This document shows, piece after piece, positions 21,461-26,752 of a DNA stretch of 64,000 bases. The notes under the pieces are model-generated. The model did not search any database. It had not been told where the DNA came from and saw nothing but the letters and a program-made list of their open reading frames with translations. Source of the stretch: Anaerolineae bacterium (lineage in GTDB: Bacteria > Chloroflexota > Anaerolineae > Aggregatilineales > UBA3940); NCBI GenBank assembly GCA_016928235.1, contig JAFGLD010000205.1, positions 1-64,000 on the forward strand. Reading direction: 5' to 3'. Both the position numbers and the translations under genes were made by a program. Position 1 is the first letter of the stretch, and every line of letters starts with the position of its first letter.

Positions 21461-21623
21461 GGGTCAGGGGATGGGGTGCTTGTCCCCATGCTCTGTGCTC
21501 AGATGTTGGTTTTTCGTTACCACGCTCTGCGTGGTAACCCAAAGGGTGATGCTTTGCATCCCGTGGTTTTTTCTTGCTCTCGTGTTTTGAGTGAGCACGA
21601 GAGAATGCATAGGAGGAGTTTTT

Positions 21624-24065
21624 ATGCGTCTTCACAAGCTACTTATCACGATCATTTTGTTTGTTATGGTGGCCGGGATGTTCAGTGGGTGTCAGGAGAC
21701 CGGCCCGACTTCTACATCAGCGCCAGAGTCTGCCGCGTCTGCTACTTCTCTGCCCACAGAAGCCCCGGAAATCGAGCCTGAAATCTTCGAGAGCTTCGAA
21801 GAAAGCTCGACCAGCTGGGCAGCCGGGCTGCCACCCAACTTTGGAGACAGCAGCGCGGTGGAAGTCAGCCTCAGTGATAAATATGCCAGCGACGGAAAGC
21901 AGTCCCTGGCAATGACCTTCGGGCAGGCTGGCCCCAGGGCTATGTTCGTCATTGAGGGCGCCTTCGATTTCTCTGAGGCGGGATATCTACAGTTCGACCT
22001 CGACGATCCGGATGGCGCTGTGCAGGGTGTTGGCTTTTCTCTGAGTACCAGCTCGGCCTGGCTGTGGCACGAAGCGAAGCCGGCTGCCGTTAAGCAGGGC
22101 GAGAACACGCTGACCTTTGATCTGGCTGCATCCACTTATTGGACCGACAATACCGATGGCGAATACAACGCCACCATCGCCGACCTGGCATCCATCCAAA
22201 GGGTAGCTATCATCCTCTATCCCAAGGCCGATGGCACCGCCTATCTGGATCAGGTGCGGCTGCTGCCCATTGAAGTCCAGCTAACTGCCTCGAGCCCCAT
22301 CGATATCGCCTTCCAGGCGGCTCCCACTGCCACCAAGGAACCGGAGCCGCTGCCTGAGTTCGATCCGGCTGATGCCGGGGTTGCGCTCACAGTGCCGGAA
22401 GGAGCCGAGTTTAGCCAGTTCAAGATGGTCGAGCTGGACGTCGAGACCAATGTCCCGGCCGCCAACCATTTCGATCCCGAAGATCTCGATATCCAGGTCA
22501 CTTTCAACGGCCCTGCCGGTAAGACTCTCCAGTCGGGTGCCTTCTGGTACCAGGAGTGGGCTGACTGGAAGGATGAGCAACCATCTGGCGAGGGCAGCTG
22601 GAAAGTACGCTTCACGCCAACCGTCGAAGGCGATTGGAGCGCGGTGGCTTCCATCGCAGCTTTCAAGGTCAAGAGCGAGTCCGTGACTTTCTCGGTGGCG
22701 GCCTCAGACAGCCACGGCTTCGTGCGCATCAATCAGAAGAACCCGCGCTATCTGGCTTTTGACGATGGCGCGCCATTTCTGGTCAATGGTATCAACATGG
22801 GGTGGTGGGAAGATGACCCGATTGGCGATTATGAGCGCTGGCTGGACGATTTCTCGGCTAATGGTGGCAACACCATCCGGGTCTGGATGGCCTCCTGGTC
22901 TTACGCCATCGAATGGCAGGAGACCGGCCTGGGCGATTACACCAACCGGATGAAGCAGGCCTGGCTACTCGATCAGCTCTTCAAGATGGCCGAGGAGCGG
23001 GACATCTATATCCTGTTGGTTCTGAGCAATCACGGGCAGTTTAGCGAAAACACCAACCCGGAATGGGCTGAAAATCCCTACAATGCCGCGCTCGGTGGGC
23101 CGCTTGCGAGCCCCGGGGAGTTCGTCACCGATGAGACGGCCCGCATGGTCTTTAAGCGCCGCCTCAATTACATCGCCCATCGCTGGGGCTACTCGACCAA
23201 CATCCTGGCCTGGGAATGGTGGAACGAGATCAACTGGACGCCCATCAACGATGAGATGCTTGTGCCCTGGATCCAGGAGATGGATGCTTACCTGGCCGAG
23301 CGCGACCCCTATGCTCACCTGACCACTGAATCGGGGCACGGCACTCAATCGAGCATCTGGCAACTGCCGGAGATGGACATTCCAACCAGGCATCTCTATG
23401 CGACGACCGACATGTATCGTTCGTCCATAGGCGCCTACCAGGATCTGACAGAGGCCATTCAGGGGAAGCCGCTTCTCTTTGCCGAGTTCGGATATTCATC
23501 ATCAGAAGAGACCAATGCGCCTTACCTGAGCAACGGTGAGCATCTCCATAATGGGTTATGGGCTCCTGTCTTCAATGGCTTTGCCGGTACCGGCATGTAC
23601 TGGTGGTGGGATACCTATGTCGATCCTCAGAACCAGTGGTATCACTTCAAGGGCATCTCGGAGTTTTTCAGGGATGAGGATCTCTCGACTTACACCCCCA
23701 TGGGAATACTCGATATCTCCGGCCCCGATGGCGAGCCTGCCGCGGCGAAGGGCATGGGGCTGAGCCGGAGTGACTCGATCTTGATCTGGCTGCGCAATGA
23801 CGTCTACACTGGAGAAGATAGCCAGGCTGCCTACGAAGATGCCATTATCGCCAAGGCCGCCGACAATTATTCCTACGATCCACCCGACGCGGAGGGGCAA
23901 ACCATCACCCTGAGCGGTGTCGCCAATGGCGCCTACACTGTACAGTGGTTCGATCCGCAAACCGCTGAGTGGCTCGATGAGGAAACTGTCACGGCAAAGA
24001 ACGGAACATTGGTGATCGTGGTTCCTACTCTTGATAAGGACCTGGCCGCTAAGATCTCTCGCTGA
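21624..24065 (+). CDS. Glycanase lipoprotein with DUF5060 and TIM-barrel domain
   Basis: An 813-residue secreted lipoprotein. The signal peptide ends with lipobox GMFSGC. Domains in order: a Thr/Ser/Pro-rich linker; a carbohydrate-binding-like beta-sandwich (about 45-210) starting FESFEESS; an Ig-like DUF5060 domain (about 255-365); and a GH5-like clan-A TIM barrel (about 370-700). The probable acid/base is Glu535 in AWEWWNEINW and the nucleophile Glu621 in LLFAEFGYSS. A small C-terminal beta domain follows. It should cut a beta-linked plant glycan, plausibly mannan given its neighbours, on the outer face of the cell. The ATG at 21624 follows AGGAGG by seven bases. The exact GH family is not certain. 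Confidence 0.82.
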   Translation: MRLHKLLITIILFVMVAGMFSGCQETGPTSTSAPESAASATSLPTEAPEIEPEIFESFEESSTSWAAGLPPNFGDSSAVEVSLSDKYASDGKQSLAMTFGQAGPRAMFVIEGAFDFSEAGYLQFDLDDPDGAVQGVGFSLSTSSAWLWHEAKPAAVKQGENTLTFDLAASTYWTDNTDGEYNATIADLASIQRVAIILYPKADGTAYLDQVRLLPIEVQLTASSPIDIAFQAAPTATKEPEPLPEFDPADAGVALTVPEGAEFSQFKMVELDVETNVPAANHFDPEDLDIQVTFNGPAGKTLQSGAFWYQEWADWKDEQPSGEGSWKVRFTPTVEGDWSAVASIAAFKVKSESVTFSVAASDSHGFVRINQKNPRYLAFDDGAPFLVNGINMGWWEDDPIGDYERWLDDFSANGGNTIRVWMASWSYAIEWQETGLGDYTNRMKQAWLLDQLFKMAEERDIYILLVLSNHGQFSENTNPEWAENPYNAALGGPLASPGEFVTDETARMVFKRRLNYIAHRWGYSTNILAWEWWNEINWTPINDEMLVPWIQEMDAYLAERDPYAHLTTESGHGTQSSIWQLPEMDIPTRHLYATTDMYRSSIGAYQDLTEAIQGKPLLFAEFGYSSSEETNAPYLSNGEHLHNGLWAPVFNGFAGTGMYWWWDTYVDPQNQWYHFKGISEFFRDEDLSTYTPMGILDISGPDGEPAAAKGMGLSRSDSILIWLRNDVYTGEDSQAAYEDAIIAKAADNYSYDPPDAEGQTITLSGVANGAYTVQWFDPQTAEWLDEETVTAKNGTLVIVVPTLDKDLAAKISR

Positions 24066-24100: not shown

Positions 24101-24133
24101 GGTGTGCTTACCGATCAGATCGGTAAGCACACC
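24101..24133 (+). repeat. 33-bp near-perfect palindrome after the glycanase gene
   Basis: Arms of 16 bp (GGTGTGCTTACCGATC at 24101-24116, its complement at 24118-24133) around one central base, directly before the 21-bp array. A GGTAAGCACACC 12-mer in its right arm recurs with one change (GGTAGGCACACC) at 24396-24407, on the far side of the array. It could be a terminator-like structure or part of a mobile repeat unit. Confidence 0.8.
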
Positions 24134-24140
24134 CAGTTTT

Positions 24141-24371
24141 GACAGCAAGCGTGCTTTGTTCGACAGCAAGCGTGCTTTGTCTGACAGCAAGCGTGCTTTG
24201 TTTGACAGCAAGCGTGCTTTGTTCGACAGCAAGCGTGCTTTGTTCGACAGCAAGCGTGCTTTGTTTGACAGCAAGCGTGCTTTGTTTGACAGCAAGCGTG
24301 CTTTGTTTGACAGCAAGCGTGCTTTGTTCGACAGCAAGCGTGCTTTGTCTGACAGCAAGCGTGCTTTGTTC
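24141..24371. repeat. Tandem array, 11 perfect-length copies of a 21-bp unit
   Basis: Eleven head-to-tail units, GACAGCAAGCGTGCTTTGTTC being the commonest, followed by a degenerate twelfth from 24372. The first 19 bases are identical in all copies. Only the last two vary: TC in units 1, 4, 5, 9 and 11; TT in 3, 6, 7 and 8; CT in 2 and 10. Each unit contains the dyad AAGC-GT-GCTT. The period equals two turns of B-DNA, so the dyads lie on one face. Because 21 is a multiple of 3, five of six frames stay open, but none has a credible start. There are no spacers, so it is not a CRISPR array. Confidence 0.95.
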
Positions 24372-24469
24372 GACCGCAAGTGTGATGGATTTGTTGGTAG
24401 GCACACCGGTATAACTTGTCTGCCATAAGACTATCGCCATAAGCCATAAGTTATAAGAGAAGGAGACAG

Positions 24470-24504: not shown

Positions 24505-25725
24505 ATGAGCAGCATTATCGATACCGCAGCCGGTTACCAGACTGAAGTCATGAATGAGCTTGTAAACGACATCCTGCCTTTCTACATCGACCATGCTGTC
24601 GACGAGAAGCAGGGAGGCTTTTACGGTTTTATCACCAACGATGTGAGAGCCATCCCGAATGCGCCCAAGGGGCTCATCCAGAATTCGCGTATTCTGTGGA
24701 CTTTTTCCCATGCCTACCGCCTTCTGAACGATCCTCGCTATCTCCCGATCGCCGGCCGGGCTTATGCTTACCTGCTCGAACATTTCTGGGATGCCGAGCA
24801 CGGCGGCTTTTATTGGATGCTCACCCACGATGGGCGTCCAAAAGATGCCGGTAAGCTGGCTTATGGACAAGCTTTCTCTATCTATGCGTTGGCAGAATAC
24901 TACCTGGCCACCCGGAACGAGCAGGTCATTGGGAAGGCGCTCAAAACCTACCATCTGCTCGAAGAACACTTTGCCGATTCGACTGATGGGGGCTATATCG
25001 AGGGCGGCACGCGCGAATGGATTCCGTCCGATGACGCTTCGCTTGATGACGCGGTGGCAGCCAAGAGCATGAACACGCAGCTCCATGTGATCGAAGCCTA
25101 CACCAACCTGCTGCGCGTCTACGACGATGATGGACTGCGTGGGCGGCTGCGGGACGAGATCGACGTGATGGTCAACCATGTCATCGATCCGGTTACCTGG
25201 CACTTCAAATTACACTTCGACGCCGATTGGCGCGCACATAACGACAATATCTCTTACGGACATGACATCGAAGGCAGTTGGCTGTTGGTCGAAGCGGCGG
25301 AAGTGTTGGATGATGCCGCGCTGCTCGGCCGGATCCGGGACATCGCCATCAAGATGGCCCAGGCTACCTACGTGGAGGGAATCGACCAGGATGGCAGCTT
25401 GTTCTACGAGGGCAGCCCGCGCGGTCTGTTGAATCCCAACAAAGATTGGTGGCCCCAGGCTGAAGCAATGATCGGGTTTCTTAATGCCTACCAGATTACC
25501 CGTGAACCTCACTTCTACGAGGCCTCATTACGTGCCTGGCGCTTCATCCAGGACACGATCATCGACAAGCAAGACGGTGAATGGTTCTGGGGGGTTACGC
25601 CGGACGGCAAGATCATCGACCAGGGGAAGACTGGCCCGTGGAAGGCCCCTTATCACAATGGACGGGCCTGCCTGGAGGTGCATCGACGGTTGAGCAAGCT
25701 CATCGGCAATGGTGTGATTGCGTGA
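24505..25725 (+). CDS. Cellobiose/mannobiose 2-epimerase (AGE family)
   Basis: A 406-residue enzyme of the N-acylglucosamine 2-epimerase superfamily, full length for a cellobiose 2-epimerase. It shows NSRILWTFSHAYR, NTQLHVIEAYTNLL, SYGHDIEGSWLL, KDWWPQAEAM and GPWKAPYHNGRA. The three expected catalytic or binding histidines are His194, His253 and His384. Their spacing (59 and 131) equals that which I recall for Rhodothermus cellobiose 2-epimerase. It has no signal peptide and acts in the cytoplasm. It would convert the reducing-end sugar of beta-1,4-linked disaccharides, for example mannobiose to mannosylglucose, giving a substrate for the GH130 phosphorylase at 10635. The next gene starts 26 bp after its stop. 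Confidence 0.9.
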   Translation: MSSIIDTAAGYQTEVMNELVNDILPFYIDHAVDEKQGGFYGFITNDVRAIPNAPKGLIQNSRILWTFSHAYRLLNDPRYLPIAGRAYAYLLEHFWDAEHGGFYWMLTHDGRPKDAGKLAYGQAFSIYALAEYYLATRNEQVIGKALKTYHLLEEHFADSTDGGYIEGGTREWIPSDDASLDDAVAAKSMNTQLHVIEAYTNLLRVYDDDGLRGRLRDEIDVMVNHVIDPVTWHFKLHFDADWRAHNDNISYGHDIEGSWLLVEAAEVLDDAALLGRIRDIAIKMAQATYVEGIDQDGSLFYEGSPRGLLNPNKDWWPQAEAMIGFLNAYQITREPHFYEASLRAWRFIQDTIIDKQDGEWFWGVTPDGKIIDQGKTGPWKAPYHNGRACLEVHRRLSKLIGNGVIA

Positions 25726-25750
25726 TTGGGGGGTGAAAGACAGGACAACA

Positions 25751-26752
25751 ATGCCTCGTTATGGATTTAATTTTCAATGGATACTGGGATGGGTAGACAG
25801 AGGAAGTATGCCGGAGCCGCCCGATCCGCGCGCACTGGACATGATAGCAGAACTGGGTTTCGATTTCGTCCGCATCCCGGCCAACTACTGGTTTTGGACC
25901 CACGATTTCGACTACCGGCATCCTGATGAGTCGGTGTGGAATGTCATCGATGACTATCTGGCGGCCTGCCGGTCACGCGGGATGCACATGAGCCTCAACC
26001 TGCATCGGGCCCCCGGCTACTGCATCAATCGCAACGATCTGGAACGCCACAATTTATGGGTGGACAAGATCGCCCAGGATGCCTTTGTCTTCCTGTGGAG
26101 CCGGTTTGCTGATCGCTATCAGGGTGTGCCTAACACCAATTTGAGTTTCGACCTGGTCAACGAGCCGCCGGGCGTCGGGGAGTACGGGATGACTCGCGAT
26201 AACCATGCCGCTTTGATACGTCGTGCTGTGGCTGCTATCCGGGAGATCGACCCGGAGCGGGAGATCGTCATCGATGGAGTGGGCGGCGGCCACCTGGCCA
26301 TGCCGGAACTGGCCGATCTGGGCGTCATCCACAGCGGTCGCGGCTACCAGCCGATGCCGATCAGCCATCATGGGGCATTCTGGTGGCCGGATTACCAGGA
26401 CGCTCCCCTGCCCAAATACCCTGGTCTGGAATGGGATGGCCGTGTCTGGGACAAAGATGCCCTGCGTAGTTACTTCCAGCCCTGGCGAGATGTCGAAGCA
26501 CGGGGCGTGACGATCCACATCGGCGAGTTTGGCTGCCACAACCAGACTCCCAACGACATCGCGCTGCGCTGGTTCGCCGATCTGCTGAGTTTGTTCAAAG
26601 AGTTCGGTTGGGGATACAGCCTGTGGCAGTTTGCCGGGCCCTTTGGCATCATCGAGCACGGACGACCCGGCGCAAAGTACGAGGATATCCACGGGTACAA
26701 AGTTGACCGCGAGCTGCTCGACCTGCTGACTGAGTGTCGCGTTCAGGGATGA
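25751..26752 (+). CDS. GH5-type cytoplasmic beta-glycosidase/endoglycanase
   Basis: A 333-residue TIM-barrel glycosidase of GH5 type. The acid/base Glu138 lies in SFDLVNEPPG and the nucleophile Glu259 in VTIHIGEFGCHN. Other family features are FDFVRIPANYWFW, HMSLNLHRAPG and SLWQFAGPFGI near the C-terminus. No signal peptide is visible, so it should act on imported oligosaccharides. The ATG at 25751 has AGGACA upstream and sits 26 bp after the epimerase stop, so the two are probably co-transcribed. Substrate could be beta-glucan or beta-mannan fragments; the subfamily cannot be set by eye. Confidence 0.83.
   Translation: MPRYGFNFQWILGWVDRGSMPEPPDPRALDMIAELGFDFVRIPANYWFWTHDFDYRHPDESVWNVIDDYLAACRSRGMHMSLNLHRAPGYCINRNDLERHNLWVDKIAQDAFVFLWSRFADRYQGVPNTNLSFDLVNEPPGVGEYGMTRDNHAALIRRAVAAIREIDPEREIVIDGVGGGHLAMPELADLGVIHSGRGYQPMPISHHGAFWWPDYQDAPLPKYPGLEWDGRVWDKDALRSYFQPWRDVEARGVTIHIGEFGCHNQTPNDIALRWFADLLSLFKEFGWGYSLWQFAGPFGIIEHGRPGAKYEDIHGYKVDRELLDLLTECRVQG

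Follow-up and report, generated by a model that had tools for sequence, protein, structure and literature searches.

A 21-bp tandem array in the gap between two genes, both on the plus strand as had been predicted, raises the question of whether it serves those genes as a regulatory device or is a repeat that has expanded where it stands. It lies within the window, by which we mean the whole 64-kb stretch of DNA analysed here from one Anaerolineae genome (G000). The original prediction offered a helix-phased multi-site protein-binding array inside a run of glycan-use genes as one reading and recent expansion with gene-conversion-like upkeep as another; taken as a whole, that interpretation is partly supported. 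Our analysis indicates that the array belongs to a dispersed intergenic minisatellite restricted to the genus, called family A below. The features of the locus are collected in Table 1.

Table 1. Features in and around the 21-bp array, in window coordinates
Feature	Position	Strand	Basis or detail
Left neighbour gene, DUF5060 protein	21591..24065	+	ORF; PF16586 E=1.3e-07
Perfect 33-bp palindrome, left edge of array	24101..24133	.	Arms 24101-24116 and 24118-24133, both 16 bp long and 100% complementary, around a 1-nt centre
Inverted pair GGTGTGC(T/C)TACC, TIR-like ends	24101..24112 + 24396-24407	.	Inverted flank similarity p=0.01 in the window
Tandem array of 21-bp units, eleven of them near-identical; 11.8 copies of TTTGACAGCAAGCGTGCTTTG	24138..24384	+	TRF; each successive step exactly 21 bp
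Diverged 12th unit TTCGACCGCAAGTGTGATGGA	24369..24389	+	14/21 to the window unit, in register
13th edge unit, sister subtype TTTGTTGGTAGGCACACCGGT	24390..24410	+	17/21 to the G000 C5 array unit, exact register
Three GCCATAA-type heptamers adjoining the array, another repeat class of the genus	24436..24456	+	Read directly
Right neighbour gene, N-acylglucosamine 2-epimerase family	24505..25725	+	PF07221 E=2.4e-37
Following gene, glycoside hydrolase family 5 (cellulase family)	25718..26752	+	PF00150 E=8.4e-20

The predicted array of eleven units is real. TRF returned a period of 21 with 94% matches and 0% indels, and alignment of the units showed 19 positions invariant over all eleven, the differences being confined to the YY of T-YY-GACAGC. 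Along the array the variants run TTT TTC TCT TTT TTC TTC TTT TTT TTT TTC TCT, followed by a diverged TTC unit. The recurrence of TTT TTC TCT (units 1-3 and units 9-11) suggests block-wise duplication of units. On reading, no 7-bp internal repeat was seen in the 21-bp unit, and comparable 21-bp arrays score low at 7 bp. At the right edge, 24390-24410 is the top match to the G000 C5 unit within the window (17/21; runner-up site 15/21). The 12-mers said to bracket the array stand where they had been placed, but the right one (24396-24407) forms part of this diverged 13th unit. At the left edge, the palindrome is exact, as predicted, and begins 36 bp past the stop codon of the left gene. Its arm GGTAAGCACACC bears a weak resemblance to the sister-subtype unit (12/21 at the best shift), and the palindrome is possibly an inverted pair of edge units. 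The window element is a satellite whose units are homogeneous in the middle and diverged at the edges, which is the expected outcome of repeated unequal exchange.

Family A was followed through a set of 101 genomes, in which G001 is the sole other genome of the genus. A DNA search of this set found related arrays confined to G000 and G001, with a unit consensus of about TTTGACRGCAAGCNYGCYKKT, at two further loci of the former and several of the latter. With a two-unit sequence model, the arrays of G000 were located at C313 (the window), C335 (14.9 copies) and C5 (11 copies), these copy numbers, which come from draft/MAG assemblies, being uncertain and possibly miscounted. The same model located arrays in G001 at C527 and C207, C528, C509 and C155, with a weak match at C337; those at C527 and C207 each lie at a contig end and are probably one array. 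Read directly, C155, C337 and C358 hold short or decayed arrays in which the 21-bp step is kept. All family-A arrays are intergenic, and the family shows what marks a noncoding satellite: head-to-tail units within the range of 10-200 nt, four or more in a row (11.8 copies of 21 bp in the window array), several loci per genome, a noncoding setting, and units that are more alike within arrays than between them.

The remaining genomes of the set gave nothing beyond single weak matches (E 0.002-0.008). In a 396-genome sample of the class, G000 alone matched at E<=1e-5, and G001 was absent from that list. A search of plasmids, phages and viral contigs for the family-A unit gave no match, and the exact two-unit pattern was not found in a genome contig collection. 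A looser (AAGC N17)x4 scan returned, among the matches listed, many distant phyla with a bias to period 21. The original prediction had named as its refutation that no other genome or locus would carry the unit; other loci and one congener do carry it. An assembly artefact is also unlikely, because related arrays occur at several loci in two assemblies.

Comparison between loci shows that the family turns over. Unit identity is 0.81-0.96 inside arrays as against 0.53-0.85 across arrays, while the core of the unit is conserved across loci; in the six arrays compared there were zero indels, all steps being exactly 21 bp. Family-A arrays thus undergo concerted evolution. The C335 array of G000 stands beside a CheA-like gene whose 81%-identical ortholog in G001 (C293) has no array upstream, with short flanking words still conserved in the array-free gap. 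Conversely, the gap between the putative ilvB and ilvC genes, so named from sequence resemblance, carries an array in G001 and none in G000 (C158). As for the window gap itself, orthologs of both flanking genes lie in G001 near two contig ends (C489 and C180) that are likely adjacent; one end bears a short 11-bp array, the other a distinct 21-bp array with about three copies. Family-A arrays therefore arise, homogenise and vanish within the time scale of the genus. Homogeneity within arrays, divergence between them and absence at two orthologous sites together bear out the predicted recent expansion with gene-conversion-like upkeep.

Helix phasing, which had been predicted for this one array, finds its support at the level of the genome: in this genus, noncoding arrays of unrelated sequence tend to have periods close to n x 10.5-11 bp, which is unusual. 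ORF-masked DNA (0.88 Mb from G000, 0.50 Mb from G001), scanned by autocorrelation, gave, besides heptamers, periods of 11 (12 arrays), 21 (8), 22 (10), 23, 31 and 42, together with single matches at 8, 12, 54 and 57. The same scan of shuffled noncoding DNA gave no match. Helix-like periods were almost nil in G002, from a second genus of the same family, where just periods 15 and 18 and one 8-bp match were recorded. Eighteen of the 23 unrelated non-heptamer families lie at most 1 bp from a multiple of 10.5, against an expected 28% (p=8e-7, in a test devised post hoc on families grouped by eye, with the window array in the input and its family outside the 23). When the 21s are left out, 11 of 16 families fit a multiple of 10.5 (p=3e-4). 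The best-fitting repeat of the family periods is 11.1 bp, and 22 and 23 bp lie off the exact 10.5 rule. At loci of 80 other genomes, 2 of 7 arrays taken without selection for period 21 fit the helix rule; therefore, the method alone gives no preference for such periods. A 21-bp period by itself could also be chance. A limited literature search found no prior description of helix-like periods across many families.

Since most of the unrelated noncoding families of the genus lie near whole turns, arrays that shift their flanks by whole turns, or that offer a site on one face, seem to be those that arise or survive. We tentatively entertain, as a possibility with the odds against it, that a genus-wide process or nucleoid protein makes or keeps unrelated tandem repeats mainly at whole helical turns, so that the intergenic satellites would be a natural record of helix-phase selection. 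Dispersed noncoding satellites of bacteria are described as rare, and how they spread and persist calls for an explanation. With helix-like periods in many unrelated families, this genus allows one to test directly whether the persistence of tandem repeats between genes is decided by DNA geometry.

Taken together, family A is probably a genus-restricted, dispersed noncoding minisatellite with a period that follows the helix, acting as tolerated spacer DNA and as no dedicated switch. One unit, or a few, would arrive at a new intergenic site as a seed and amplify in place through slippage or unequal recombination; the same exchanges would homogenise the units while the edges of the array decay. 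Whole-turn arrays may then be preferentially made or kept, retention that preserves helix phase being favoured, either through a protein binding one face or because whole-turn inserts would spare the geometry of nearby promoters. The window array is most likely a tolerated intergenic spacer, and any architectural effect of it would be mild at most.

The closest competitor is a minisatellite produced by purely neutral slippage, in which the 21-bp period would be meaningless. We consider this possible, though on balance we do not favour it. The lineage-specific presence, the homogeneous core and the diverged edges all match neutral turnover, and satellites occur in several bacteria (PMC6749651). 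However, the clustering of periods over unrelated families speaks against it. Furthermore, units are common to non-orthologous loci, which requires dispersal beyond local slippage. The same survey, which covers satellite-rich prokaryotes including Chloroflexus aurantiacus, a member of the same phylum as the window organism, calls dispersed noncoding satellites rare; it reports noncoding satellite families in Leptospira interrogans and Methanocella conradii and heptamer satellites in C. aurantiacus (PMC6749651). In these accounts, as in family A, related noncoding arrays are scattered over one genome, but the long-repeat families listed there are built from units of, for example, 37, 46 and 69, and the C. 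aurantiacus arrays derive from a heptamer, as against 21 here. Helix-like clustering of periods is not described in the passages of the survey consulted (PMC6749651).

The nearest precedent for family A is BrickBuilt of Porphyromonas gingivalis, a 23-nt minisatellite inside a MITE that is always intergenic and present in 19 copies per genome (PMC4596501). Both consist of short, spacer-free head-to-tail repeats, dispersed, always intergenic and restricted to a narrow taxon (PMC4596501). A mobile element of this kind, with inverted ends and a minisatellite as cargo, is nevertheless an unlikely account of the window array. The inverted 12-mer edges (p=0.01) speak for it, as do families C and D of the genus, which are contained in longer dispersed elements that have inverted ends. 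In contrast, the BrickBuilt repeats are accompanied by leader and tail segments that bear inverted ends, whereas four of the five family-A arrays tested lack common ends (p=0.33-0.77 for these four), and G000 holds three arrays. Moreover, flanks differ between loci, and no target site duplication was recognised by eye at the edges of the window array, a site without a clean empty counterpart. Because family A fails the test of common inverted ends, we do not class it as a MITE.

A multi-site binding array, operator or architectural, would have each unit bound on one helix face and would act on the neighbouring genes or the nucleoid. Whole-turn periods and a unit core common to different loci are in its favour, and so is the depletion of arrays between convergent genes: among the 31 arrays, of whatever kind, for which both neighbours could be seen, a set that includes arrays from a targeted search, 20 lie between co-directional genes, 10 between divergent and 1 between convergent ones, compared with 215, 86 and 67 background gaps, respectively. 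This scarcity hints at an upstream preference or role. We nonetheless regard the binding array as quite unlikely. The predicted AAGC-GT-GCTT dyad is present in the unit but ordinary, as an inverted pair of 4-bp arms turns up in 28% of 21-mers shuffled at the same composition, and the unit as a whole is no more symmetric than expected by chance (p=0.36). Iterons and operator arrays carry direct repeats of about 20-22 bp on one helix face; family A differs in occupying several dispersed chromosomal sites that are not kept at orthologous positions. Its neighbours are unrelated (the DUF5060 protein and the epimerase, CheA-like, NifU-like, IlvB/IlvC), and its orientation relative to adjoining genes is mixed. 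Although the DUF5060 protein is probably a glycan-active lipoprotein, the glycan-use context of the window array looks incidental, and the prediction of a binding array within a glycan-use run is not borne out. Many unrelated sequence families obey the same period rule, so one binding protein would not account for it. REP/BIME elements, associated with RAYT transposases, are likewise dispersed intergenic repeats and sometimes tandem, but the family-A unit is not significantly palindromic. No promoter-like site was found over the palindrome.

It is very improbable that the array is transcribed into hairpins by which the operon mRNA is attenuated or made more stable. Its position between two co-directional genes, with a palindrome shortly after a stop codon, would suit such an RNA element; against it, the folding of the array does not surpass that of shuffled sequences on either strand (z +1.97 and +0.70), no Rfam family reaches threshold, no terminator-like site was found over the palindrome, and sister arrays occur in both orientations. 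A coding heptapeptide repeat of the FDSKRAL type, invited by 21 bp being 7 codons and by a plus-strand frame open for 109 aa, is hardly credible, since frames stay open on either strand alike, for one trivial reason, there is no common start or flanking domain, and other arrays of the genus have periods of 11, 22 and 31. Such arrays should not be annotated as operators or small ORFs.

Several leads were examined and set aside. A sub-threshold Rfam match over the palindrome, to an animal microRNA family, is a chance match. Apparent hairpin covariation between arrays (AGC..GCT, GGC..GCC, GGT..ACC) looked attractive but fails in C509 and moves to another register in the short G001 array; the symmetry and folding controls were negative. 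A link to RAYT is unsupported: G000 has one PF01797 match at the cut-off, and PF01797 also occurs in genera without arrays.

The genus holds other repeats besides family A. Cyanobacterial STRR-type repeats are heptanucleotide repeats. TAACTGA repeats are similar to the STRR type (PMC4679880). The genus resembles these in being rich in degenerate heptamer arrays, including the GCCATAA-type units by the window array; it differs in its 21-bp family-A unit, which has no visible 7-bp internal repeat. The heptamers ACTCGTC, GCCATCA, GCCATAA and GGGGTTA are abundant in intergenic DNA of G000 and G001 (for example, L280:132-199 and L253:1-87).

Family B consists of 21-bp arrays of AAGCTCCGGCTCGAGATCATG in G000 at C101, C117, C290 and C27 (L260, L261, L291 and L259); three of them reach or approach contig ends, and the assembly was probably broken by them. 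Family C is a dispersed element with near-palindromic units of 21-22 bp, AAAAAGATCGAGAAGTTTTT, and inverted ends GTCAACTTAAG..CTTAAGTTGAC, exemplified in G000 and G001 by L326:13940-14074, L261:17030-17094 and L316:6500-6570; its pattern gave 55 matches in G000 (both strands counted), 15 in G001 and none across 152 further genomes of the order. Family D is a MITE-like dispersed element of more than 150 bp, with 3-5 copies of the 11-bp repeat GGAGTATGGTA and ends GAAGATAC/GTATCTTC (L293:16400-16444, L308, L313, L320 and L325). In the ilvB-ilvC gap of G001 (C528; L012:1692-1900), a second, degenerate stretch with a 21-bp step directly follows the family-A array, with units such as CTGATCGGCACGCCCACCGAA. 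A dispersed palindrome similar to GGTTACGGATNNNTATCCGTAACC occurs at two G001 contig ends, the starts of C180 and C207 (L057:1-25; L015:60-90 and 185-215). Finally, G112, from another genus of the order, carries a 21-bp repeat of its own, AAGCCCGTTGCCAGTGGGCTA, which is the same on the three contigs C13, C86 and C211 (L069).
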